A stretch of DNA of 64,000 bases, taken from positions 1,054,001 to 1,118,000 of the forward strand of contig CP074381.1 in assembly GCA_022041995.1 (NCBI GenBank), written 5' to 3'. Within the stretch, counting starts at the first letter, position 1. Every line of letters begins with the position of its first letter. A program made the position numbers and the translations under genes. The notes beneath the pieces were generated by a model that was given only the letters and a program-made list of their open reading frames with translations, was not told the DNA's origin and made no database searches. The stretch comes from Cupriavidus necator (GTDB lineage Bacteria; Pseudomonadota; Gammaproteobacteria; Burkholderiales; Burkholderiaceae). This document shows, in pieces, positions 35,998-51,132 of the stretch.

Positions 35998-37398
35998 TTA
36001 GTCAAGCGCGCGATTCTTCGACTCGATATCCACCATGTAGATGGCGACCGCCGCCACGGCAAGAAATGACGAAAGCAGCGCCAGGGCAAGGGTGAACTGG
36101 CTGGCCATGATCGGTGCGATGATGGACGGTGCGAAGAGGCCGCCAAAGCGCGCCATCGCGCCGGCAGTGCCCATCCCGCTGGCGCGCAGGTCGGTCGGGT
36201 ACACCTCGGGCGTGAAGGCGTAGAGAGCGCCCCAGGTACCGAGGAGCGAGAAGCTCATCAGCAGGGTCGAGCCGACCACGAGCGCAGGGGACTGGCCCAG
36301 GCTGTAGAGCATGCAACCTGCCGCGCTGAGCAGCAGGAAGCCGATCAGGGTCGGCTTGCGGCCCCAGCGCTCGACGCCGTGCGCGGCCAGCGCGAACCCG
36401 GGAAGCTGCACCAGCGCGAGCACGATCAGGAAGACCTGGCCACGCATGAAGCCAAAGCCCTGGCCCGCCAGCTTGACCGGCAGATAAACGAAGACGCCGT
36501 AGTAGGCGATCGAGATAAGCGCCCAGGCGGCAAGCAGGCAGATGGTGCGGCGCCGGCATCCGGGCGCGAAGAGCGCAAAGACCGACTTGCGCTCCATCGG
36601 CTGGGGCTCCAGCTTGCCAATTTCCACGGATACGCGATTGGCGGTGGCGACACGCTGCAGCACCGCGCGTGCCTCGGCTGAGCGCCCCGATTTGTTCAGG
36701 TAGAGCGGAGACTCGGGTACAAAGAACCGGAAAACCACGCCGACCAGGGCGGGGATGCCCGTGACGAGGAAGATCAGCCGCCAGGCACCATCGCCTCGCG
36801 ACACGGCGATCAGCGCAAGAATGGCGAGCAGGATCGTGCCAACGGCCCAGAACGACTCCAGCAGGACCAGCCAGCGGCCGCGCCGGTCCGAGGGCAGGAA
36901 CTCGGCCATCATGGTGTAGTCGACGGGCAGCGTGCCGCCGACGCCGATGCCGGTCAGGAAGCGCAGCAGCAGCAGCCACTGGAAGTCCGGTGCGAAAGCG
37001 GAAGCGACACCGCAGATGGCGTCGATGACCACCGCCATCATCAGCACGGGCCGGCGGCCGATCCTGTCAGCCAGCCGGCCGAACACGAAAGCGCCGATCA
37101 GCATGCCGACAAAGAACATCGTCCCGGTCTGCAAGGCCGTCGGTACGGGAATGCCAAACGTCGCCGCGATCGACGGCGCGGTGAAGCCGATCGACAGCAC
37201 CTGCATCGCGTCGGCGAGCCAGACCAGGCCGAAGATGACAAAGAGCCGATACTGGAACCGGCCGACTCCGGCCGCGCGGATGCCTTGCTCGATCGTGATG
37301 GTTTGAGACGACGCTCCCCGCGCGCCTGGCTGTGGGGCCGAGCCTAGCGTTGCTTCTGGGATTGCCGTTGTTGTCATGGATGAAATGGATGACGACAT
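35998..37398 (-). CDS. niaP: MFS transporter, NiaP-like (probable nicotinate importer)
   Basis: 466 residues and 12 predicted membrane spans. The MFS loop [16 protein letters not shown] lies near 105-120. The stretch [20 protein letters not shown] near 145-164 and [16 protein letters not shown] near the C-terminus resemble the NiaP subfamily, which is known to carry nicotinate in Burkholderiales. It lies at the end of the nicotinate-degradation island, on the same strand as nicC-nicA-nicB, which supports nicotinate as substrate; other aromatic acids remain possible. The start at 37398 has no clear Shine-Dalgarno sequence. A TATAAA box lies about 15 nt before it. Confidence 0.82.
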
Positions 37399-38018: not shown

Positions 38019-40946
38019 TTAATGGGCAGGCATCGCGCGCAGGCGCGCGACGGTGTTCTCCAGGCCCTGCCAGGCGGGTTTGTCGGGCGCAAAGCGCGCG
38101 CGCAGGTACTGCGCGAGCTGCGCGATCTGCTGGTTGTCGAGCGTGTCGGCATAGGCCGGCATCGCACCCAGTTCGCTGTTGGGTGGGGCAGGCATGCCGT
38201 GCAGCAGCACCTGGATCACGTTGTCCGGCAGCTTGCTGTGCAGGTTCGTATTAAGCGCGAGCGAAGGCTTGACGCCGAACTGGGCAATGCCCTGGTCCGA
38301 TTGATGGCAGACCGCGCATGCGCTCTGGTACAGGCGCTCGCCGGGACCGCTCAGGGTGCGCGCGGCTTGCGCGCTGCGTTGCTCGATCTGCGCTGCCTGT
38401 GCGGCCAGTACTGTCGGTGCCGGCGGCGGGGTTCCAAACGAGGCCACGTAGTGCGCGATCGCGCGCACATCGGCTTCAGGCAGTTGCGCCAGCTCTTCGA
38501 CCACCGGTGCCATCGGCCCCGCCGCGGCGCCATGGTGCGGCGCGTAGCCGCCGCGCAGGTAGGAGAACAGTGCCGCCTCGGTCCAGGGCAGCGGTGCGTG
38601 CGACAGTGCGCTCAGCGGCGGCGCTTCCCAGCCTTCGGCGCTGCCGCCGCTCAGGTACTGGCGGCCGCCTTGCTCGGCGCCGAGCGCATTGCGCGGCGAA
38701 TGGCAGGCACTGCAATGGCCGAGCCCTTCGGCCAGATAGGCGCCGCGATTCCATTGCGCGGAGCGCGACGGGTCCGGCGTAAAGCGTTCGTTGCGATGGA
38801 ACAGCAGGTTCCAGCCCGCCAGCAGCGGGCGCACGTTGAAGGGGAACGCAAGCTGCGTCTGCGGGACTTCGGATTTCACCGGCTCCGCCGACATCAGGTA
38901 GCCATACAGCGCCTGCATGTCGCCGTCGCTGATTTTCGCGAATGCGGTGTACGGGAACGCGGGATACAAGCGCCGCCCGTCGCGGTGTATGCCCTCGCGC
39001 ATGGCGCGCTCGAACGCGGCAAAGGACCAGTTGCCGATGCCGGTCTGCACATCCGGGGTGATATTGGTGCTGTAGACCGTGCCGAAGGGCGTCTCCAGCG
39101 GCAGGCCACCGGCGTTCTTCACGCCGCCCGGCGCGGTATGGCATACCGCACAGTCTCCCGCAGCGGCCACCAGCCGGCCGCGTTCGAGCGTGGCGGCGGA
39201 ATAGAAGCCGGCCTCGGGCGGCGCCACCGGTGCGACCGGCGCGCGCCAGGGCAGCAGCGTGGCGCACACGCCCGCCGCGGCTGCGGCGGCAGCGGCGATC
39301 CAGCCGCGCTTGCTGCGCTGGTTGCCGGGCCTGGCCTCGGCCAGCGCCAGGCGGATGCGATCGGCGCTGAAGGGTGGCGCGCGCAGGCGCACGCCGGTGG
39401 CGTCGTAGATGGCATTGGCCACGGCCGCGGCGGCGGGCATGGTGTCGGCCGGGCCGGCAGCCAGCGCGTCATGCGTGGCGAGCGTGCCGGCCAGGCGGAC
39501 TTCCGGCGGGGTGCCGCCCGGCACGGCTGGCAGGGTCTGGCTGGCAGGTGGCGCCTCGGCCGGCCAGGTGTCGAAGGCGGGCGTGGCCGACGTCAGCTGC
39601 AGGGCAGCATCGGCCACGGCCTGCTCGAGCGAGCGCGCCGACGGCGCGGCTTGTGCGCGCGGCAGCGATTCACTGTCATGCCCCACCGTCACGCGCGTGA
39701 CCGCCAGCTCGCCGGTGGTGCCGTCGACCTCGACCTCGGCCACCCATGCCGACCAAGTCTGCCCGGCATCGTGATCGACGGTGTGGGCATAGGCAAAGCC
39801 GCGGCCGCGCTGCACGTTGCCGGCCGCTGAGTTGGCGCGGGGCGCGGCCGGCGTCCAGCCGGCGCGCTGCGACACTTGCCGTACCAGTGCCGTGCCGCGC
39901 GCGTCGTCGAGATGCGCCAGCCGCAGCGCGACCGGGTCGGTGCCGGAGGCGGCGGCAAGCTCGTCGAGATGGGATTCCCGGGCGAACACCTGTGCCCGGG
40001 CGGTCGCCAGTGGCGCCGCATCGAACGCGGCGGGGTTGCCTGTCGCAACCAGGTCGACATGCGGGATGCGATAGGGCGGCATGGCGGCATCGCCGGCGCG
40101 GTCGGCATCGATGCTGTCCGCCACGGGCGATGCCGTATGCGTGAGCCACAGCGCCAGCGGCACGGCCGGAGCGGCCGTGCCCGCCAATGTTGCGGCGTAG
40201 GCTTCGACGGCAGTGCCGGCCAGCGCGGTGTCGACCCGTACATTGAGAGCGGCATCGGCAAGGCCCACGTCGGCGGCACACAGCCGACGCATCACGGGCT
40301 GCCCGGCGGCGTGGGCCAGCAGCGCCGCGTCGGCGGCGGCGTGCGGCGCGAGCAGCGCGGGGTCCGCGCGGTCGTCGGGCGCCTGCCAGCAGGCCAGCAC
40401 CACCTGTTGCGGCGCGATGCCCAGCAGCGCGGCAAGCTCGGCGCGCAGCGCGCCAGGGCGCGTGCTCGGCAGCCACACGGTCAGCTTGCCGTCGCGCCAG
40501 TCGGCGACGGCAGTGCAATACGCTTGGCCACGGGCTCCGGCCAGCGGCCACTGGTAGTGCTGCGTCTGGCGTGCCTCGGCGCTGGCCAGGGCCGCATTGG
40601 CGTTGCCGCGCTGAGCCAGCGCGCGGCGCGCTATCGGCGCGCCGTCTGCGCGGGGCGCGGCGGACCAGCGTGCCTGCAGCGCATGGATGGCGCCGGCGCC
40701 CTGTGCAGGCGAAGCCGCGGCCACGCCGGCAAAGTTGTTGCGGATCACGACCGCGCGGATGCCGGGCAGCGCCAGCGCGGCCTCGCGCTCTGCGCCCAGC
40801 AGGCGCGCTGCGAGCGGCTGGCCGTCGATCCAGCGCAGGCCGGGCGGTGTCAGCACCTGTGCGACCAGGCAGTCGGCGGCGGGCGGCGGCATGCTGCCCG
40901 CAACCGCAGTGGCGCAGGTGGCCTGCGAAGCGCGTAGTTCGTTCAC
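38019..40946 (-). CDS. nicB: Nicotinate dehydrogenase cytochrome c subunit (NicB-like, with degenerate molybdopterin domain)
   Basis: 975 residues. Residues 1-535 resemble a molybdopterin-binding dehydrogenase domain, but the usual Moco contacts are eroded and the catalytic GAGE is replaced by AAGP. A membrane span follows at about 545-565 (SKRGWIAAAAAAAAGVCATL). Three cytochrome c domains then carry CAVCH (near 599), CSACH (near 745) and CAVCH (near 878). This would pass electrons from nicotinate hydroxylation to the respiratory chain, with haems in the periplasm. The GTG start overlaps the nicA stop (GTGA), showing translational coupling. The intact molybdopterin subunit appears to be encoded at 47236-49509. 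Confidence 0.87.
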   Translation of the reverse strand: MNELRASQATCATAVAGSMPPPAADCLVAQVLTPPGLRWIDGQPLAARLLGAEREAALALPGIRAVVIRNNFAGVAAASPAQGAGAIHALQARWSAAPRADGAPIARRALAQRGNANAALASAEARQTQHYQWPLAGARGQAYCTAVADWRDGKLTVWLPSTRPGALRAELAALLGIAPQQVVLACWQAPDDRADPALLAPHAAADAALLAHAAGQPVMRRLCAADVGLADAALNVRVDTALAGTAVEAYAATLAGTAAPAVPLALWLTHTASPVADSIDADRAGDAAMPPYRIPHVDLVATGNPAAFDAAPLATARAQVFARESHLDELAAASGTDPVALRLAHLDDARGTALVRQVSQRAGWTPAAPRANSAAGNVQRGRGFAYAHTVDHDAGQTWSAWVAEVEVDGTTGELAVTRVTVGHDSESLPRAQAAPSARSLEQAVADAALQLTSATPAFDTWPAEAPPASQTLPAVPGGTPPEVRLAGTLATHDALAAGPADTMPAAAAVANAIYDATGVRLRAPPFSADRIRLALAEARPGNQRSKRGWIAAAAAAAAGVCATLLPWRAPVAPVAPPEAGFYSAATLERGRLVAAAGDCAVCHTAPGGVKNAGGLPLETPFGTVYSTNITPDVQTGIGNWSFAAFERAMREGIHRDGRRLYPAFPYTAFAKISDGDMQALYGYLMSAEPVKSEVPQTQLAFPFNVRPLLAGWNLLFHRNERFTPDPSRSAQWNRGAYLAEGLGHCSACHSPRNALGAEQGGRQYLSGGSAEGWEAPPLSALSHAPLPWTEAALFSYLRGGYAPHHGAAAGPMAPVVEELAQLPEADVRAIAHYVASFGTPPPAPTVLAAQAAQIEQRSAQAARTLSGPGERLYQSACAVCHQSDQGIAQFGVKPSLALNTNLHSKLPDNVIQVLLHGMPAPPNSELGAMPAYADTLDNQQIAQLAQYLRARFAPDKPAWQGLENTVARLRAMPAH

Positions 40947-41440
40947 GATGCCGCTCCCCCGGCGGCTTGCCGTTGCAGCACCGCGGCGCGCTTGACCGCG
41001 CGCACGATTTCCACATGCGTGCCGCAGCGGCACAGGTTGAAGCGCAGCGCTTCGCGGATCTGCGCTTCGTCGGGATCGGGATTCTGGGCGAGCAGTGCCT
41101 TGGCGGTCATGATCATGCCATTCAGGCAGTAGCCGCACTGCGCGGCCTGCTCGTCGATAAAGGCCTGCTGCACCGGATCGGGACGCTGCGCCGTGCCCAG
41201 GCCCTCGAGCGTGGTCACAGCATGGCCCACCGCGGCCCTGACCGGCAGTACGCAAGAGCGTGCGGGCAAGCCGTCCACCAGCACCGTGCACGCGCCGCAC
41301 TGGCCCAGGCCGCAGCCGTACTTGGGCCCGTTGCAGCACAGGTCGTTGCGCAGGATGTAGAGCAGCGGCGTGTCAGGCGCAGCGCTGAGCGTGTGCTCGG
41401 CGTGGTTGACCTGCAGTGTCAGGGGGCGGGGCGTGTTCAT
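40943..41440 (-). CDS. nicA: Nicotinate dehydrogenase [2Fe-2S] subunit
   Basis: 165 residues. The plant-type ferredoxin cluster is bound by NDLCCNGPKYGCGLGQCGAC (near 33-52) with a further Cys near 64. The second, all-helical cluster domain has QCGYCLNGMIMTAKALL (near 102-118) and CRCGTH (near 137). This is the small subunit of xanthine-oxidase-family hydroxylases. Placement between nicC and nicB and overlap with nicB identify it as NicA, which works on nicotinate to give 6-hydroxynicotinate. Confidence 0.93.
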   Translation of the reverse strand: MNTPRPLTLQVNHAEHTLSAAPDTPLLYILRNDLCCNGPKYGCGLGQCGACTVLVDGLPARSCVLPVRAAVGHAVTTLEGLGTAQRPDPVQQAFIDEQAAQCGYCLNGMIMTAKALLAQNPDPDEAQIREALRFNLCRCGTHVEIVRAVKRAAVLQRQAAGGAAS

Positions 41441-41530
41441 CGGGGGCTGGGGGCGGTTTGAACATCACGCATCGCGGCGCCGCGCCCCTTCGTTGGCGAG
41501 GGGCTGCGGCGGGCAGGGGCGGTCAGGCGA

Positions 41531-42865
<1,335 letters not shown>

Positions 42866-42938
42866 TTATGCGCAAAAACAGGGATTGATTAATTAAGCAT
42901 GCACTGAACGAGTGAATTCGCGACGGCACAGATTCTGT

Positions 42939-42967
42939 TTGCTTAGATAAAGTGTGTACACTACAAT
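42939..42967 (+). promoter_or_regulatory. Promoter of nicEDXF with embedded operator
   Basis: TTGCTT (42939-42944) and TACAAT (42962-42967) are 17 nt apart. The palindrome AGTGTGTACACT at 42951-42962 fills most of the spacer and touches the -10 box. A repressor bound there would block RNA polymerase directly. The predicted leader is about 60 nt. Confidence 0.75.
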
Positions 42968-43033
42968 CAATCGCAGCATGCAGGGCCGCCAGGCCGAGGC
43001 AGGCGGGTAGACAGACAAAGCGCAGACAAACAG

Positions 43034-43801
43034 ATGACGGAGTCGACAGTGCAGAAAGTTTTCCGAATCGGCCAGATCGTGCCGAGCTCCAACACCACCA
43101 TGGAAACCGAGATCCCGGCGATGCTGGCCGCGCGCCAGCTGGTGCGCCCGGAACGCTTCACCTTCCACTCAAGCCGGATGCGGATGAAGAAGGTGGTCAA
43201 GGAAGAGCTGGCGGCCATGGACGCCGAATCCGACCGCTGCGCGGTGGAACTGAGCGACGCCCGCGTCGACGTGCTCGGCTACGCCTGCCTGGTGGCGATC
43301 ATGGCGATGGGCCACGGCTACCACCGTGTGTCCGAGCAGCGCCTGCAGGCGCATACCGCCGAGAACGGCGGCGACGCGCCAGTGATCACCAGCGCCGGCG
43401 CGCTGGTCGATGCGCTCAAGGTGATGGGCGCGAAGCGCATCGCCGTGGTGGCGCCCTATATGAAGCCGCTGACCGAGCTGGTGGTCGACTACATCCGCAA
43501 TGAAGGCTATGAGGTGGTCGACTACCGCGCGCTGGAGATCCCCGACAACCTTGAGGTGGGTCGCCACGACCCGGCGCGGCTGCCGGAGATCGTCGCGCAG
43601 ATGAATACGGCCGACGCCGATGTCATCGTGCTGTCGGCGTGCGTGCAGATGCCGTCGCTGCCGGCCGTGGCCAAGGTCGAGGCGATGACCGGCAAGCCGG
43701 TGGTCACCGCCGCCGTCGCCACCACCTATGCGCTGCTGAAGCGGCTGGGGCTGGAGCCGGTGGTGCCGGGCGCCGGCGCGCTGCTGTCGGGCGCGTACTG
43801 A
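43034..43801 (+). CDS. nicE: Maleate isomerase
   Basis: 255 residues, Asp/Glu racemase fold. It isomerises maleate to fumarate, the last step of the nicotinate pathway, without cofactor. The start region RIGQIVPSSNTTMETEIPAM is typical of maleate isomerases. Two active-site cysteines lie in LGYACLVAIM (Cys 85) and LSACVQMPSL (Cys 203), equivalent to the pair known in the family. It is first in an operon, with nicD 11 nt downstream. Confidence 0.94.
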   Translation: MTESTVQKVFRIGQIVPSSNTTMETEIPAMLAARQLVRPERFTFHSSRMRMKKVVKEELAAMDAESDRCAVELSDARVDVLGYACLVAIMAMGHGYHRVSEQRLQAHTAENGGDAPVITSAGALVDALKVMGAKRIAVVAPYMKPLTELVVDYIRNEGYEVVDYRALEIPDNLEVGRHDPARLPEIVAQMNTADADVIVLSACVQMPSLPAVAKVEAMTGKPVVTAAVATTYALLKRLGLEPVVPGAGALLSGAY

Positions 43802-43812
43802 AGGAGGCGGCC

Positions 43813-44643
43813 ATGGCAGACAGCACCTTTCTCTACGGCGCCAACGTGAACGCCAACGGCATCCGCCAGCACTACCTGCGCTATGGCGGGCAGGGCGGCG
43901 CGCGTGCGCAGCGCGATGCCGTCATCATCGTGCCGGGCATCACCAGCCCCGCGGTGACCTGGGGCTTTGTCGGCGAGCAGTTCGGGCAGCAGTTCGATAC
44001 CTATGTGCTCGACGTGCGCGGCCGCGGCCTGTCGCAGGCCGGCGCGGAGCTGGACTACAGCCTCGATGCGCAGGCTGCCGATGTGATCGCGTTTGCTGGC
44101 GCGCTTGGCTTGCAGCGCTACGCCATCGTTGGCCATTCGATGGGCGCGCGCATCGGCATCCGCGCCGCGCGCAGCAAGCCGGCAGGCCTGACGCGCCTGG
44201 TGCTGGTCGATCCGCCGGTGTCGGGCCCGGGCCGCCGCCAGTATCCGTCGCAACTGCCGTGGTACATCGATTCGATCCGGCTGGCGCAGCAGGGCATCGA
44301 CGTGGAAGGCATGCGCCGCTTCTGCCCGACCTGGACCGAGGACCAGCTGCGCCTGCGCGCGCAATGGCTGCATACCTGCGACGAGCGCGCGGTCCTGGCC
44401 AGCTTCAATGGCTTCCATGAGGACGATATCCACGCCGACCTGCCGCACGTGGCCGTGCCGGCCCTGCTGATGACCGCGGGGCGTGGCGACGTGATCCGCG
44501 AGGAAGACGTCCAGGAGATGCGCAAGCTGCTGCCCGCATTGCTGCTTGCGCATGCCGCCAACGCCGGCCACATGATCCCGTGGGACGACGAGGCCGGTTT
44601 CTACCGCGCCTTCGGCGACTTCCTGGGTGCGGCACTGAACTGA
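43813..44643 (+). CDS. nicD: N-formylmaleamate deformylase
   Basis: 276 residues, alpha/beta hydrolase. It releases formate from N-formylmaleamate to give maleamate. The nucleophile elbow GHSMGAR has Ser near 109. The oxyanion segment IIVPGITSPAVTWGFV lies near 38-53. A late His sits in AANAGHMIPWDDEAGFY near 251. An AAGGAGG site overlaps the nicE stop, suggesting coupled translation. The operon context makes NicD the clear choice among alpha/beta hydrolases. Confidence 0.92.
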   Translation: MADSTFLYGANVNANGIRQHYLRYGGQGGARAQRDAVIIVPGITSPAVTWGFVGEQFGQQFDTYVLDVRGRGLSQAGAELDYSLDAQAADVIAFAGALGLQRYAIVGHSMGARIGIRAARSKPAGLTRLVLVDPPVSGPGRRQYPSQLPWYIDSIRLAQQGIDVEGMRRFCPTWTEDQLRLRAQWLHTCDERAVLASFNGFHEDDIHADLPHVAVPALLMTAGRGDVIREEDVQEMRKLLPALLLAHAANAGHMIPWDDEAGFYRAFGDFLGAALN

Positions 44644-44656
44644 TCAAGGAGCGAAT

Positions 44657-45736
44657 ATGCCCGTAAGCGATTACGACCTGACCACGGCGTGGAAGCAGGT
44701 GCTGACGCTGTCCAGGCTTGAGCCGGGGCAGACCGTCACCGTGCTGACCGGCGCCGCCACGCATCCGCAGACGCTGCGCACCGCAATGGTGGCGGCGGCA
44801 TCGATGGGCGCCATCGTCAACCGGCTCGACCTGCCGCCGGTCAATGGCGAAAAGGCGCTCAGCCGCGACGCGCTGGCCTATCTGGGGACCACGCCGCTGA
44901 CCGGCAACCCGGCCGCGATTGCCGCGCTCAAGGCCAGCGACCTGGTGCTGGACCTGATGACGCTGCTGTTCTCGCCCGAGCAGCACGCGATCCTGGCGCA
45001 AGGCACCAGGATCCTGCTGGCGGTGGAACCGCCCGAAGTGCTGGCGCGGCTGGTGCCGACCGAAGCCGACCGTGCCCGCGTCAAGGCCGCGGCCGCGCGG
45101 CTGGGCAAGGCGCGCGAGATGCATATCGTGTCTGACGCCGGCATGGACCTGCGCTGCCGCCTGGGCGAGTTCCCGGCAATCAGCGAGTACGGCTTTGTCG
45201 ACGAGCCCGGCCGCTGGGACCACTGGCCGAGCGGCTTCGTGCTGACCTGGCCGGACGAGGGCGGCACCAACGGCACCATCGTGCTGGACCGCGGCGACAT
45301 CCTGCTGCCGATGAAGTCCTATATCCAGGCGCCGATCCGCATTACGGTCGAGGCCGGCTACGTGCGCGGCATCGAGGGCGACGTGGATGCCGAGCTGCTG
45401 GCCGACTACATGGCCTCGTTCAACGACCCCGAGGCCTATGCCATGTCGCATATCGGCTGGGGCCTGCAGCCACGTGCCAGCTGGTCGGCGCTGGCGATGT
45501 ACGACCGCGAGGCCACCATCGGCATGGACGCGCGCGCCTACGAGGGCAACTTCCTGTGCTCGTTCGGCCCCAACAACGAAGCGGGCGGCAGCCGCACCAC
45601 CGCCTGCCATATCGATATCCCGGTGCGCCACTGCACCGTAAGCCTCGACGGTGAGCCGGTGGTGGTGCGCGGCAAGGTGATGGACGGGCACCACGTTCCC
45701 GCCGCATCGCTCTACAAGGAATCGCGCCATGGATGA
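44657..45736 (+). CDS. nicX: 2,5-dihydroxypyridine 5,6-dioxygenase
   Basis: 359 residues. A non-haem Fe(II) ring-cleaving dioxygenase that turns 2,5-dihydroxypyridine into N-formylmaleamate. His 265 (MSHIGWG), His 318 and Asp 320 (ACHIDIP) sit at exactly the positions of the iron ligands described for Pseudomonas putida NicX. A leucine-aminopeptidase M29-like fold is expected. A CAAGGAG site precedes the ATG. Its last 8 nt overlap nicF (ATGGATGA). Confidence 0.95.
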   Translation: MPVSDYDLTTAWKQVLTLSRLEPGQTVTVLTGAATHPQTLRTAMVAAASMGAIVNRLDLPPVNGEKALSRDALAYLGTTPLTGNPAAIAALKASDLVLDLMTLLFSPEQHAILAQGTRILLAVEPPEVLARLVPTEADRARVKAAAARLGKAREMHIVSDAGMDLRCRLGEFPAISEYGFVDEPGRWDHWPSGFVLTWPDEGGTNGTIVLDRGDILLPMKSYIQAPIRITVEAGYVRGIEGDVDAELLADYMASFNDPEAYAMSHIGWGLQPRASWSALAMYDREATIGMDARAYEGNFLCSFGPNNEAGGSRTTACHIDIPVRHCTVSLDGEPVVVRGKVMDGHHVPAASLYKESRHG

Positions 45737-46364
45737 CGCAGTGCAGACCTACCAGCGCCAGGGCTTCGGCGCGTCGATGGAACTCAAGGCGCCGTACGGC
45801 CTGCTGATCATCGACTTCGTCAACGGCTTCGCCGATCCGGCGGTGTTCGGCGGCGGCAATATCCCCGAGGCGATCCGCAATACGCAGCCGCTGCTGCGCA
45901 CCGCGCGCGAGCAGGGCTGGCCGGTGGCGCACAGCCGTATCGTGTTTGCCGACGATGACAGCGACCACAACATCTTCACGCTGAAGGTGCCCGGGATGCT
46001 GACGCTGAAGGAGGCTGGGCACAACAGCCAGATCGTGCCGGAGCTGGCGCCCGCGCCGGGAGAGCTGGTGGTGCGCAAGACGGTGCCGTCGGCGTTCTTC
46101 GGCACCTCGCTGGCGGCGTGGCTGACGCAGCGTGGCGTGCAGACGCTGCTGGTGGCGGGTTGCGTCACCAGCGGCTGCGTGCGCGCCAGCGTGGTCGACG
46201 CGATGTCTCTGGGCTTGCGCCCGCTGGTGGTGTCGGATTGCGTGGGCGACCGCGCGCTGGGCCCGCATGACGCCAACCTGTTCGACATGGCGCAGAAATA
46301 CGCCACGGTGCTGACGCGCGACGAGGCGCTGGCACAGGTTGCCAGCGTGCGGGCCGCCGCCTGA
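45729..46364 (+). CDS. nicF: Maleamate amidohydrolase
   Basis: 211 residues, isochorismatase-like cysteine hydrolase. It hydrolyses maleamate to maleate and ammonia. The triad is visible: Asp in LLIIDFVNGF near 35, Lys in VVRKTVPSAFFGT near 117, and Cys in VAGCVTSGCVRAS near 150. The start overlaps the end of nicX, so translation is coupled. It is the last gene of the nicEDXF operon and is convergent with the TetR gene, 27 nt away. Confidence 0.93.
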   Translation: MDDAVQTYQRQGFGASMELKAPYGLLIIDFVNGFADPAVFGGGNIPEAIRNTQPLLRTAREQGWPVAHSRIVFADDDSDHNIFTLKVPGMLTLKEAGHNSQIVPELAPAPGELVVRKTVPSAFFGTSLAAWLTQRGVQTLLVAGCVTSGCVRASVVDAMSLGLRPLVVSDCVGDRALGPHDANLFDMAQKYATVLTRDEALAQVASVRAAA

Positions 46365-46391
46365 GGCGTGGCGATGCGGGCGGGCCTGGCG

Positions 46392-47153
46392 TCAGCCTGC
46401 CGCCGTGCGCCGGCCGCGTGCCGGCTTGCGCGGCGCGGCCGGCGGCGCCACGTCCGCATCCGCCACCGCGCCGGGCACGGCCACCGCGCGCAGCACCGTC
46501 TGCTGGATCACATCGCGCCAGTGCGCCAGCGCGGGCGGGCTCATCATGGGTTCGCCCAGGAAGGCGCTGAGCGTATGATGGTTGGAGTTGTAGAAGTAGC
46601 CAAGCGAAGCGATCACCATATAGACATCGCGCGCGCCCGCGTCTGGCCGGAACAGCGCCGCGGCCTTGCCGCGCGCGAGGATGCCGTCAAGCACCGACAG
46701 CGCGTAGCTGGAGATCTCGCGCAGCCGCACCGACTTCTTCGCGTGCTTGCCCTGGCTCATGTTCTCGCTGGTCAGGATGGCGACGAACTCCGGATGATCC
46801 AGGTAGTACTGCCAGACGAAATCGATCAGCTGCGTCAGCGCGCGCACAGGATCGGCGGCGTCGAGCTCATGTTCGAGCTGCTGCTCGGCTTCATTGAGTT
46901 GCAGGTAGATGGTCTCGAGCACTTCGACAAACAGTTTTTCCTTGCTGCCGAAGTAGTAGTAGATCATCCGGTCGTAGGTCTTGGCCAGCGACGAGATGCG
47001 TTCGATGCGGCCCCCGTCGTAGCCGCGCTGGGCGAAGACCTTGATCGCAGCCTTCAGGATGCGGTCGCGGCTGTCCTGCGCTTGCCTGGCCCGCGTGCCG
47101 GCTGCCGCCCGCTTCGCGGCTGGCTTGGGCGCAGGTCTGGTCGTGATCGTCAT
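46392..47153 (-). CDS. nicS: TetR-family regulator (NicS-like)
   Basis: 253 residues. The TetR helix-turn-helix lies at about 29-75 (RILKAAIKVFAQRGYDGGRI, then MIYYYFGSKEKLFVEVL). A long helical ligand domain and a basic, Pro/Ala/Lys-rich tail (ARGRRTAAG end) follow. The start at 47153 (MTITTRP) leaves a Lys/Ala-rich N-terminal arm. It lies inside the nicotinate island, divergent from the molybdopterin subunit gene, matching NicS, which controls the nicotinate dehydrogenase genes in Pseudomonas. The name is given by context. Confidence 0.82.
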   Translation of the reverse strand: MTITTRPAPKPAAKRAAAGTRARQAQDSRDRILKAAIKVFAQRGYDGGRIERISSLAKTYDRMIYYYFGSKEKLFVEVLETIYLQLNEAEQQLEHELDAADPVRALTQLIDFVWQYYLDHPEFVAILTSENMSQGKHAKKSVRLREISSYALSVLDGILARGKAAALFRPDAGARDVYMVIASLGYFYNSNHHTLSAFLGEPMMSPPALAHWRDVIQQTVLRAVAVPGAVADADVAPPAAPRKPARGRRTAAG

Positions 47154-47235
47154 GGTCGATGCCTGGGCTATTCCACTGTTGGCTTGCAGTATAACGGCGC
47201 CCCGGGGCGCAGCCGGTGAAGGAGATGGCAGAACG

Positions 47236-49509
47236 ATGACGGCAACCAACCTGCAACCCGCGGCACAGTCCGACGCCGACACGCCGCGCACGCTGCGGCT
47301 GGCGCTGCTGCGGGCCACCGGCGTGCTGCTGGTGACGCGCGCCCCGCAGGCGGCCGCACGGCCAGCGCCCGGCCAGCCCGGCGCGGCGTCGGACTACGTG
47401 CCGGCGCTGCCGGACCTCTTCATTGCCGTGCGCGACAGCGGCGAGGTGCTGGCCTTCAACGGCCACGTCGACCTTGGCACCGGCATCCGCACGGCGCTGG
47501 CGCAGATCGTGGCGGAAGAACTCGACGTGCCGCTCGAACGCGTACGCATGGTGCTTGGCCACACCGAAGCCACCCCCAACCAGGGTCCCACCATCGCCAG
47601 CGCATCGATCCAGATCTCGGCGCTGCCGTTGCGCCGCGCCGCCGCCCAGGCGCGTGCGTGGCTGCAGGCGCGCGCCGCGCAGCGGCTCGGCGTGGAATCC
47701 GGCCGGCTGGAGGCAGAGGACTGCGTCTTCCGCGTTCCCGGCACCCAGGCCAGCATCGGCTACGGCGCGCTGGTTTCCGGCGAGCATGTGGAACTGCAGC
47801 TGGCAGACGACATACCCACCAAGCCGGTCGAGTCCTACCGTATCGTCGGCCGCGCCGCGGGCCGCGTTGATATTCCTGACAAGGTGCGCGGCGCGCTGAC
47901 CTTTGTCCACGACGTGCGCGTGCCCGGCATGCTGCATGGCCGCGTGGTGCGACCGCCGTATGCGGGGCGCGACAGCGGCGGCTTTGTCGGCAATAGCCTG
48001 CTGGAAGTCGACCGCGATTCCGTGCGCCATATACCCGGCCTGGTCGATGTGGTGGTGCAGGGCGATTTTGTCGGCGTGATAGCCGAGCGCGAGGAATACG
48101 CGGTCCAGGCCGCGCGCCGGCTGCGCGTGCGCTGGAAGCCGGTGCCGCCGCTACCCGCGCTGGACGATCCGGAGCCCGCGCTGCGCGCCAACCCGGCCAC
48201 GCGGCGCGAGCTGCTGTCCGACGGCGAGCTGCCGGCAAACGGCGCCGGCACGGTATTGCAGCGGCGCTTCGTCTGGCCGTACCAGATGCATGGCTCGATC
48301 GGCCCGTCATGCGCCGTGGCCGACTGGCATGACGATGGCCTGACGGTGTGGTCCGGCACGCAGAACCCGCATGTGCTGCGCATCGATCTGGCAAAGCTGT
48401 GCGGGCTCGGCGAAGACCGCATCGAGATCGTGCGCATGGAGGCCGCCGGCTGCTACGGGCGCAACTGCGCCGACGATGTATGCGCCGACGCGGCACTGCT
48501 GTCGCGTGCCGTTGGCCGGCCCGTGCGCGTGCAGCTCTCGCGCGAACAGGAGCATCTGTGGGAGCCCAAGGGCGCGGCCCAGCTGATGGACGTCAGCGCC
48601 ACGCTGGGCCCGGACGGGGCGCTGCTCGGCTATGACTTCACCAGCCGCTATCCGTCCAACGATGCGCCCACGCTGGCGCTGGTGCTGACCGGTGCCGTGC
48701 CCAACGCGCCGCGCACACTGGAGATGGGCGACCGCACCGCCGTGCCGCCATACGCATACGGCGCGCGCCGCATCGGTTGCGACGACACGCCCGCAATCGT
48801 GCGCGCGTCCTGGCTGCGTGGCGTGTCGGCGCTGCCCAATGCGTTTGCGCATGAGTGCGTGATCGATGAGCTGGCCGCGCAGGCGGGTGCCGATCCCGTG
48901 GATTTCCGGCTGCGGCACCTGCCGGATGAACGTGCCGCGGCCTTGCTGCGTGCCGTGGCCGAAGCGGCTGGCTGGCAGCGGGGCGTGGCCGGGTCGCGCG
49001 GCATCGCGGATGCCGAAGGCCGCTTGCGCGGCCGGGGCGTGGCCTATGCCCGCTATATCCACAGCCGTTTCCCGGGCTTCGGCGCAGCCTGGTCGGCCTG
49101 GGTGGTGGACGTGGCGGTGGATGCCGGCACCGGCCGCATCACCATCGAAAAGGTGGTGGTCGGGCAGGACACCGGCATGATGGTCAATCCCGACGGCGTG
49201 CGCCACCAGATCCACGGCAACGTGGTGCAGACGCTCAGCCGGGTGCTGAAGGAGCAGGTGCGCTTCGATGCGGAGGGTGTCGCCAGCCGCGAATGGGGCA
49301 GCTATCCGCTGCTGACCTTCCCGGAAATCCCGCAAATTGACGTGGTGCTGATGCCGCGGCAGTCGGAGCCGCCGCTGGGCGCAGGCGAATCGGCCTCGCT
49401 GCCGGGCGCGCCGGCGATCGCCAATGCCTTGTTCGATGCCCTGGGGGTGCGCCTGCGCCGGCCGCCGTTCGTGCCCGAGACGGTGCTGGCGGCGATGACG
49501 GCTCGCTGA
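47236..49509 (+). CDS. Nicotinate dehydrogenase molybdopterin subunit
   Basis: 757 residues, xanthine-oxidase family, isoquinoline-1-oxidoreductase-beta-like. FNGHVDLGTGIRTALAQIVA lies near 75-94. The Moco-binding EAAGCYGRNCADDVCADAAL lies near 400-420. The C-terminal PLGAGESASLPGAPAIAN carries the catalytic Glu near 717. It has no cytochrome or iron-sulfur domain, so it needs NicA and a cytochrome subunit. The one in this window with a dead molybdopterin domain (NicB-like) is the obvious partner. A GGAG lies 11 nt before the ATG; an ATG nearer to it runs straight into a stop. Confidence 0.85.
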   Translation: MTATNLQPAAQSDADTPRTLRLALLRATGVLLVTRAPQAAARPAPGQPGAASDYVPALPDLFIAVRDSGEVLAFNGHVDLGTGIRTALAQIVAEELDVPLERVRMVLGHTEATPNQGPTIASASIQISALPLRRAAAQARAWLQARAAQRLGVESGRLEAEDCVFRVPGTQASIGYGALVSGEHVELQLADDIPTKPVESYRIVGRAAGRVDIPDKVRGALTFVHDVRVPGMLHGRVVRPPYAGRDSGGFVGNSLLEVDRDSVRHIPGLVDVVVQGDFVGVIAEREEYAVQAARRLRVRWKPVPPLPALDDPEPALRANPATRRELLSDGELPANGAGTVLQRRFVWPYQMHGSIGPSCAVADWHDDGLTVWSGTQNPHVLRIDLAKLCGLGEDRIEIVRMEAAGCYGRNCADDVCADAALLSRAVGRPVRVQLSREQEHLWEPKGAAQLMDVSATLGPDGALLGYDFTSRYPSNDAPTLALVLTGAVPNAPRTLEMGDRTAVPPYAYGARRIGCDDTPAIVRASWLRGVSALPNAFAHECVIDELAAQAGADPVDFRLRHLPDERAAALLRAVAEAAGWQRGVAGSRGIADAEGRLRGRGVAYARYIHSRFPGFGAAWSAWVVDVAVDAGTGRITIEKVVVGQDTGMMVNPDGVRHQIHGNVVQTLSRVLKEQVRFDAEGVASREWGSYPLLTFPEIPQIDVVLMPRQSEPPLGAGESASLPGAPAIANALFDALGVRLRRPPFVPETVLAAMTAR

Positions 49510-49528: not shown

Positions 49529-49550
49529 GCGGCGCCTGCTCAGGCGCCGC
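49529..49550. terminator. Hairpin between the molybdopterin subunit gene and the MarR gene
   Basis: GCGGCGCCTG and CAGGCGCCGC form a perfect 10-bp stem with a CT loop. On the minus strand an imperfect T-rich stretch (TTTAAGTT) follows, so it suits the end of the MarR gene best; it could also slow the plus transcript. Confidence 0.6.
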
Positions 49551-50019
49551 CATTCCCCTCGTCGATCTCACTCATCTTGCGCAGCAGGTAAGTCACCGCG
49601 ACGCGCTCGGCCGGGTTCAGGTTGCCGAAGGTCTGCTCCGAGATCTCCTTCGCGAACGGCACGGTCTCGTCGATCAAGGCCAGCCCGTCTGGCGTGACCG
49701 TTACCACCACCTTGCGCCGGTCGTTGGGGTCGTGCGATACCGCAATCAGCTTGCGCGACTTCAGCCGGTCGATAATGCCCCGCACCGTGGCCTGGTCGAT
49801 GGCGGTGGCGCGCACCACCTCGTTCATCGAACACGGCTGCCGGTCCCTGACCGCGCACAGCACCACGAACTGCGCCGCGGTCAGCTGCGAATCCGGGATG
49901 GTCTGCTGGAAGATCGCCACATGGCGCTGGTAGGCGCGCCGCAGCAGGTGGCCCACCTGCTCGGTGAAATCATAGTCGGCGGCGGTCTTGCCGGAAGGCG
50001 TGTCGGCGGGTTGGGGCAC
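49540..50019 (-). CDS. nicR: MarR-family regulator (NicR-like)
   Basis: 159 residues from a GTG at 50019. The winged helix has AIDQATVRGIIDRLKSRKLI (near 80-99) and the wing DPNDRRKVVVTVTPDG. NicR in Pseudomonas represses the nicotinate genes and responds to 6-hydroxynicotinate. The position at the edge of the island suggests the same role, but it is not next to nicX as in Pseudomonas. The GTG lacks a strong ribosome-binding site; no in-frame ATG exists near the expected start, so the start is uncertain. Confidence 0.8.
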   Translation of the reverse strand: MPQPADTPSGKTAADYDFTEQVGHLLRRAYQRHVAIFQQTIPDSQLTAAQFVVLCAVRDRQPCSMNEVVRATAIDQATVRGIIDRLKSRKLIAVSHDPNDRRKVVVTVTPDGLALIDETVPFAKEISEQTFGNLNPAERVAVTYLLRKMSEIDEGNGGA

Positions 50020-50205
50020 GAAATGGGTGCAGTGGATGAGGTGACTCAGAGTATACCGAGGAAGGTGGCGCGAAGGTGGCGCGAAGGCAAAGGAAAGGTG
50101 CCGGGGCCACTGGGTGACGCCCGATGCCATTGCGTCTTTTCGAATACAATCGTCGGGTCGTTTCGCGGGGCCGCGAGGCCCGCCCGCTTTCCCCTGTATT
50201 CCCCC

Positions 50206-51132
50206 GTGCCCGCCTCCCAGAAGTCTCTCGCCGCACCTGCCGTGCTGCCGTCGCCGCAGCACTCTGGCCTTGTCATCGCCGCCGTCGGTGCGGTGCTGTT
50301 CTCCGCCAAGGCGATCGTCGCCAAGCTGATGTACCGCTACCACGTCGATGCGGTGATGGTGATCACGCTGCGCATGCTGTTCGCCGTGCCGCTGTTCATG
50401 GCGATCGGCTGGTGGCAGTCGCGCCGGCTGGCGCCGCTGTCGTGGGCGGATCGCGGGCGCGTGGTGTTTCTCGGCTTCATCGGCTACTACCTGTCGAGCT
50501 TCCTCGATTTCATCGGCCTGCAATACATCACCGCCGGGCTGGAGCGGCTGATCCTGTTCCTGACGCCGTCGTTCGTGCTGCTGGCCACCGCGCTGGTCTT
50601 CCGCCGGCCCATTGCCATGCGCCAGTGGCTGTCGCTGCTGCTGGCCTACGCCGGCATCGTGCTGGTATTCGCGCACGACCTGGACGTCAGCGGCAGCGAG
50701 GTGTGGCTGGGCGGCGCGCTGGTGCTGGGCAGCGCCATGACATATGGTATCTACCTGATCCTGAGCGGCGAGCTGGTGCGGCGCATCGGCTCGCTGCGGC
50801 TGGTGGCCTATGCGATGTGCGTCTCGACCGCCTGCTGCGTGATCCAGTACCTGGTGCTGGGCCGGCCGGTGGCGGAACTGGCGCAGCCGGCGCCGGTGAT
50901 GTGGCTGTCACTCATCAATGCGGTGTTCTGCACCGTGCTGCCGGTGTCGCTGACCATGGTGGCGGTGTCGCGCATCGGCGCGCCGATGGCCTCGCAGGCC
51001 GGCATGATCGGCCCGGTGTCGACCCTGTTGCTGGCCTTCTGGCTGCTGGGCGAGCCCGTCAGCGGCGTGCAGCTGGCCGGCAGCGCGCTGGTGATGGGCG
51101 GCATGTATTTGCTGTCGGCAAGAAAGACGTGA
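50206..51132 (+). CDS. EamA/DMT-family transporter
   Basis: 308 residues with ten predicted membrane spans in two EamA repeats (first begins GLVIAAVGAVLFSAKAIVAK, second around WLGGALVLGSAMTYGIYLIL). Such proteins export amino acids, metabolites or similar small molecules; the substrate is unknown. The start is a GTG at 50206, chosen because the preceding frame is low-complexity. It is divergent from the MarR gene, which may or may not control it. An SDR gene follows 55 nt later on the same strand. Confidence 0.85.
   Translation: MPASQKSLAAPAVLPSPQHSGLVIAAVGAVLFSAKAIVAKLMYRYHVDAVMVITLRMLFAVPLFMAIGWWQSRRLAPLSWADRGRVVFLGFIGYYLSSFLDFIGLQYITAGLERLILFLTPSFVLLATALVFRRPIAMRQWLSLLLAYAGIVLVFAHDLDVSGSEVWLGGALVLGSAMTYGIYLILSGELVRRIGSLRLVAYAMCVSTACCVIQYLVLGRPVAELAQPAPVMWLSLINAVFCTVLPVSLTMVAVSRIGAPMASQAGMIGPVSTLLLAFWLLGEPVSGVQLAGSALVMGGMYLLSARKT

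Follow-up and report, generated by a model that had tools for sequence, protein, structure and literature searches.

The window, the whole stretch of 64,000 nucleotides analysed here, holds a Cupriavidus nic cluster that includes a three-gene nicotinate dehydrogenase. One subunit fuses a molybdopterin (Moco)-type domain to cytochromes c, and a second Moco protein is encoded nearby. What is the fused domain, where did it come from, and what does it do next to an intact copy? The first-pass annotation took it for a catalytically dead remnant and suggested that a duplication had separated catalysis from electron transfer. We re-examined the locus and its relatives by sequence comparison, structure prediction and phylogeny.

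Gene content of the nic cluster

NicA and the 975-residue fused protein are encoded by adjoining genes on the minus strand, and the gene of the 757-residue Moco protein sits on the plus strand at a distance of about 6 kb. The coordinates first given for the fused and the 757-residue genes are right; the former can further be placed on the minus strand, running from 40946 to 38019 with a GTG start and a 4-base overlap with the end of NicA. The features are:

35998 to 37398, minus: MFS transporter in the NicT position (PF07690, E 1.4e-49)
38019 to 40946, minus: 975-residue pseudo-Moco, membrane helix and triheme cytochrome c protein, nicB2-type (open frame; 48 distinct relatives of the same build)
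38022 to 39200, minus: its three haem-c domains, residues 583–975, with CxxCH at 599, 745 and 877 (CxxCH motifs, Pfam, 8gy3_A)
39249 to 39305, minus: its predicted membrane helix, residues 548–566, with a basic stretch before it (Kyte-Doolittle 1.63 over 19 residues)
39327 to 40868, minus: its degenerate Moco domain, residues 27–540 (profile match, predicted fold)
39450 to 39452, minus: codon of Pro499, in the place of the catalytic Glu (alignment)
40943 to 41440, minus: NicA, [2Fe-2S] subunit, 165 aa (Fer2_2, E 2.2e-29, and Fer2; best solved relative 8gy3_B)
41531 to 42847, minus: NicC, 6-hydroxynicotinate 3-monooxygenase (5eow, E 5e-165, from ORF residue 51; true start probably later)
43034 to 43801, plus: NicE, maleate isomerase (4fq7, E 1e-112)
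43639 to 44643, plus: NicD-like alpha/beta hydrolase (Abhydrolase_1 from residue 94; true start later than the ORF start)
44657 to 45736, plus: NicX, 2,5-dihydroxypyridine dioxygenase (7cn3, E 1.2e-121)
45729 to 46364, plus: NicF-like isochorismatase-fold hydrolase (PF00857, E 5.9e-45)
46392 to 47318, minus: TetR-type regulator between nicF and the Moco gene (PF17938 and PF00440 from residue 87; true start later)
47236 to 49509, plus: intact 757-residue Moco catalytic subunit, nicB1-type (MoCoBD_1, MoCoBD_2; GCYGRN and GESAS kept)
49387 to 49389, plus: codon of the catalytic Glu718 (motif, alignment)
49540 to 50676, minus: ORF whose C-terminal part is a MarR-type regulator, in the NicR/BpsR position (PF01047 at residues 265–323)

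The set has the NicA/NicB1/NicB2 layout: a [2Fe-2S] subunit with two Cys motifs, an intact Moco subunit of the xanthine oxidase family (the 757-residue protein), a triheme cytochrome c subunit (three CxxCH motifs, Pfam, and a match of the cytochrome part to 8gy3_A with an E value of 1.6e-102), and adjoining genes of the maleamate pathway (NicC, NicX and NicE, with NicD- and NicF-like proteins assigned by Pfam). Judging from these genes, the three-part enzyme would convert nicotinate to 6-hydroxynicotinate. Two regulator genes flank the Moco gene, a TetR-type before it and a MarR-type after it. An open frame at 46368 to 47219 on the plus strand was rejected as a gene, having no Pfam match and lying opposite the TetR gene.

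A degenerate Moco domain in the fused protein

The 975-residue protein begins with the degenerate Moco domain (about residues 27–540), followed by the membrane helix and then the three haem-c domains. About 535 of its residues had been reported to align with a Moco domain, and this is borne out by a profile of 109 intact rows (the 757-residue protein, 45 separate Moco subunits and 63 NicB fusions), in which residues 28–538 match positions 222–747 with an E value of 3e-63. Chance similarity was rejected, as none of 1020 shuffled sequences reached an E value of 10.

The earlier observations that the catalytic Glu is lost and the GCYGRN-type loop unrecognisable proved correct. Specifically, Pro499 aligns with Glu718 of the 757-residue protein, Asp191 aligns with the first Gly (405) of GCYGRN, and neither GES[AS] nor GCYGRN occurs in any of the 48 distinct relatives. 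The alignment with intact relatives thus shows neither a conserved catalytic Glu nor the GCYGRN loop, the outcome that would have refuted the first-pass annotation. It also uncovers a loss that had gone unnoticed, that of the N-terminal ~220 Moco residues with their HVDLGTG and NQGPTIAS motifs: the window match begins at profile position 222, and none of 51 domains matches before position 218. The 757-residue protein retains HVDLGTG, NQGPTIAS, GCYGRN and GESAS.

The dead domain is predicted to have the fold of a Moco subunit still. AlphaFold modelling of the fused protein gave a mean pLDDT of 72.2. Within the dead domain, pLDDT lies mostly above 80 up to residue ~420 and at 26–73 per ten residues at ~421–500; model numbers are protein numbers minus one, the start residue having been left out. 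Model residues 16–539 superpose on residues 220–771 of 8gy3_C with a Z score of 28.0 and an rmsd of 4.0 over 459 residues, in a model that may be pulled toward the enzyme fold since 11 of the 35 rows in its alignment were intact NicB. As a control, the 757-residue model gave a Z score of 33.9 over 661 residues (model 15–757 on chain 40–769). Among solved structures, the 8GY3 entry, a membrane-bound aldehyde dehydrogenase of Gluconobacter oxydans, comes closest in sequence to all three proteins, and the dead-domain model likewise finds its best match in the Moco subunit of this enzyme; its cytochrome chain (444 residues), unlike the window protein, has no pseudo-Moco domain.

Three gene layouts among relatives

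Loci were sorted by layout for the best 80 of 182 places in named genomes, together with further relatives; within those 80, the closest named relative is C. lacunae, whose fused protein is 89% identical. Layout A, NicA with an intact NicB fusion, comprises 63 loci and 63 distinct proteins, all with GCYGRN and the Glu (as GES[AS] in 62 and GEST in one). No second Moco gene lies within the stretches of 3.7 to 23 kb around these loci. Layout B, the dead domain-cytochrome fusion with a separate Moco gene, was found at 50 loci with 48 distinct fused proteins (the window uncounted). An intact separate Moco gene accompanies 46 of the 48; the gene is cut short in one genome (G047), and the contig ends in another case (L046). 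Among these 46 partners, 45 are full-length and carry both motifs without exception, the 46th being that of L121 on the neighbouring stretch L169. The partner sits on another contig in two layout B genomes (G015 and G052). Layout C consists of NicA, Moco subunit and plain cytochrome (L133, L162 and L163).

Layout B is represented in Cupriavidus, Herbaspirillum, Pusillimonas, Eoetvoesiella, Alcaligenes and Azoarcus; its more trimmed version is seen in Paraburkholderia largidicola and, to judge from the match range, Burkholderia stagnalis. The public record of P. largidicola names the fused protein merely a c-type cytochrome. Left out of the counts were L001–L035 (the window's own copies, paralogues and duplicates of other loci), the contig-end fragments L019 and L051, and L145, which matches in the cytochrome part only and has no adjacent NicA; L139 and L140 repeat L047 and L049.

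Several loci stand apart. One genome (G505) carries both a dead-domain layout B set (L158) and an unfused layout C set (L163). In G047 (L118, L179, L186) the Moco gene ends after about residue 316, with no remainder within 18 kb, and the dead domain-cytochrome gene is open; the catalytic subunit seems to have been lost naturally in this genome. Sets of a NicA-like protein, a Moco protein (35–39% identity) and a plain triheme cytochrome occur in the same genus and family (L164, L165 and L166), and their Moco proteins have neither GCYGRN nor GES[AS]. On plasmid pBYT1-1 of Pseudomonas sp. BYT-1, typed as conjugative, a stretch (L183) that shares 53% identity with the final two thirds of the fused protein lies near IS6100.

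Decay and constraint in the dead domain

The Cupriavidus-type dead domain matches the profile from ~219–243 to 743–750, in two or more pieces in some members; in the trimmed, Burkholderia-type domain, what can be recognised is mostly limited to ~520 to 750 (weakest E 1.2e-9). The blocks FA-ES--DE, DPVALRL-HL, RGRGFA, WSAWV and AAAIANA--DATGVR-R-PPF can be recognised in both types. We counted a near-invariant enzyme column as kept when present in at least 80% of members, and compared five cofactor motif windows, picked from what is known of the family, with the remaining positions. The 30 Cupriavidus-type members, including the window, kept 5 of 43 columns in the motif windows versus 63 of 148 elsewhere (p 1.2e-4); for the 19 trimmed members the figures were 4 of 23 versus 27 of 62 (p 0.041). 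By this count, the losses are concentrated in the cofactor motifs. A Glu at the aligned column in some dead domains was considered and set aside: it occurs in four of 48 rows (47 loci and the window; L116, L117, L122 and L132), in the context IEQA or IEHA and not GES, where the alignment is uncertain.

In 12 close pairs, dN/dS was 0.19–0.38 for the dead domain and 0.04–0.15 for the cytochrome part, a ratio of about 1.7–7.6; the live Moco subunit gave 0.07–0.27 in 11 close pairs and lay below the dead domain in 10 of them. Between the window and distant relatives, dead-domain dN/dS reached up to 0.79, with dS near saturation. These values indicate that the dead domain is constrained, less so than the neighbouring parts; to judge by dN/dS, it is under purifying but relaxed selection.

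Origin of the three-part enzyme

In a Moco tree of 42 rows, the free subunits come together in one clade (99*) that sits inside the intact NicB fusions over starred branches, and layout C falls outside the grouping of both. The position of this clade inside the intact fusions supports the view that a NicB gene was duplicated and that the copies specialised, as the first-pass annotation had proposed. In a tree built on shared columns, the dead domains group together (84), next to NicB fusions from the family to which the window belongs (88), a placement that is weaker because of long branches. The cytochrome tree requires two changes for layout B; a single clade is not rejected for B (p 0.105) and is rejected for A (p 0.019). 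All three trees were made by a quick method, the Moco and cytochrome trees with 12 of the 63 intact fusions and 23 of the 50 dead-domain loci plus the window, and the shared-column tree with 14 of the 50 plus the window. The simplest account of these topologies would lead from an unfused set to a fusion (A) and then, by duplication and re-splitting, to B. On sequence grounds, we regard the dead domain and its origin as solid.

Discussion

We consider it probable that duplication of NicB gave rise to a three-part nicotinate dehydrogenase in which the pseudo-Moco domain serves as a docking platform. The ancestral NicB would have joined a Moco domain and a membrane-anchored triheme cytochrome c in one protein, and its duplication probably took place in an ancestor among the betaproteobacteria. 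One of the copies would then have lost its cytochrome and become the free catalytic Moco subunit; the other would have lost the first third of its Moco domain with the catalytic and cofactor motifs, keeping the cytochromes and a folded pseudo-Moco domain. In the resulting enzyme, nicotinate would be hydroxylated at C6 on the free Moco subunit, and electrons would travel from there by way of the two NicA clusters to the haems. Most likely, the pseudo-Moco domain docks NicA and the live Moco subunit beside the cytochromes, and may do so through the faces that joined NicA and the Moco part in the ancestral fusion. The layout, the lost residues, their conservation and the nested Moco tree can be read directly from sequence; the reaction, the electron route and the scaffold or docking role are what we infer, and relaxed purifying selection is consistent with the last of these.

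The most serious competitor, unlikely as we judge it, is that the pseudo-Moco domain is a decaying relic with no job beyond carrying the helix and the cytochromes, trimmed at different speeds in different lineages. It would account for a dN/dS that exceeds the cytochrome value in every one of the 12 close pairs, for a first haem that lies anywhere from residue 387 to 649 across 47 layout B loci, for the loss of the whole middle in Burkholderia-type members, and for the existence of plain cytochrome sets. The elevated dN/dS and the restriction of recognisable positions to ~520–750 in the Burkholderia type do suggest that part of the domain may be free to decay. A pure relic is harder to reconcile with a dN/dS below 0.4 in all 12 close pairs, with the retention of 63 enzyme columns outside the motifs in at least 80% of 30 members (and of 27 out of 62 in the 19 trimmed ones), and with a frame that, at 47 loci, stays open from the NicA end (gap −17 to 143 bases) up to and including the third haem, in a sorting that broken-frame loci would escape. 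The layout C sets (L133, L162, L163), one of which shares its genome (G505) with a dead-domain set, nevertheless suggest that the pseudo-domain is perhaps dispensable in some enzymes of this kind.

Two further explanations fare worse. The free Moco subunit might have been recruited from an unfused three-gene enzyme and not born by NicB duplication; unfused NicA/Moco/cytochrome sets are indeed present in the order, but the free subunits branch within the NicB fusions and the unfused sets outside them, which makes recruitment very improbable. Hardly credible at all is a fused protein that is itself catalytic through an unusual Moco site, leaving the 757-residue protein for another substrate. Both genes belong to one nic cluster and both proteins keep the overall fold, yet GES and GCYGRN are gone from 48 of 48 fused proteins, none of 51 domains matches the profile before position 218, and an intact separate Moco gene goes with 46 of the 48; in one case this gene is broken, and in one the contig ends.

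As to the docking platform that we favour, a hydrophobic stretch with net positive charge ahead precedes the haems in the 27 relatives checked and in the window; it lies between the Moco-type part and the haems in layouts A and B, and near the start in layout C and in L164–L166. The charge before the helix suggests that NicA and the Moco part would be cytoplasmic and the haems periplasmic, an arrangement predicted from sequence features that does not account for how electrons would cross the membrane. In 8gy3, chains B and C as deposited align from near their first residues, though a processed signal would be invisible there. The pseudo-Moco domain and the live Moco subunit might form an asymmetric pseudo-dimer, one half live and one dead, that docks a soluble cytoplasmic hydroxylase on a membrane cytochrome with its haems across the membrane; it would resemble a xanthine dehydrogenase dimer with one half blinded. 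We offer this only tentatively.

Several known systems bear comparison. The nicA-nicB pair of Pleomorphomonas sp. SM30, of the P. putida NicAB type, likewise combines NicA, a Moco domain and a cytochrome part, and its NicB Moco part is 61% identical to the window's 757-residue protein. That type has a single intact NicB of 1188 residues, whereas in the window the live Moco protein is separate and the fused one dead. NicB of P. putida KT2440 presumably belongs to this type. In one review a three-gene enzyme appears with subunits of 21, 82 and 46 kDa, the 46 kDa subunit being called a flavoprotein (PMC10331938). By size such an enzyme would fit layout C; it is presumably that of Comamonas.

The first-pass annotation had surmised that a three-component enzyme might already be described in Comamonas. 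The three-part gene set is indeed in print for other genera. Delftia acidovorans Cs1-4 carries nicB2, nicA, nicC, nicE, nicD, nicX, nicF and nicB1 in the same order as the window (excerpt of PMC4572682), and the enzyme of Burkholderia gladioli and Bordetella is termed 'tripartite' (excerpt of PMC10269826). The NicA/NicB1/NicB2 enzymes of Delftia, B. gladioli and Bordetella match the window's layout to judge from these descriptions, and the same excerpts make no mention of a degenerate Moco domain. Growth on nicotinate is on record for a strain of Alcaligenes aquatilis (PMC6460240), which is only circumstantial because the layout B Alcaligenes (L062) is a different species. In the open literature searched, no account of a degenerate Moco domain as part of a nicotinate dehydrogenase came to light; this is weak evidence, since the primary papers on P. 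putida and Bordetella nic lay outside that search. A Moco-type fold without cofactor within a redox complex is reported for NuoG of respiratory complex I (PMC10609526). NuoG is a precedent for a cofactor-free Moco fold, in the Mo/W-bisPGD family and not, as here, the xanthine oxidase family. No live sister subunit is known beside NuoG in complex I.

Taken on its genes and their conservation, the window's system is a genuine variant of a known enzyme, conserved and well supported. It belongs to a natural series from live domain to trimmed scaffold, with intact fusions, dead domains of ~530 residues and remnants of ~225 positions in related species, in which the dead domains coexist with a live replacement copy, adjoining or in the same genome. 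The finding also bears on annotation, given that one public record reduces the fused protein to its cytochrome. Why the dead catalytic domain is retained is a question open to a simple deletion test, and if the pseudo-dimer were true, the protein would be a pseudoenzyme scaffold within the xanthine oxidase family that arose through fusion, duplication and re-splitting.
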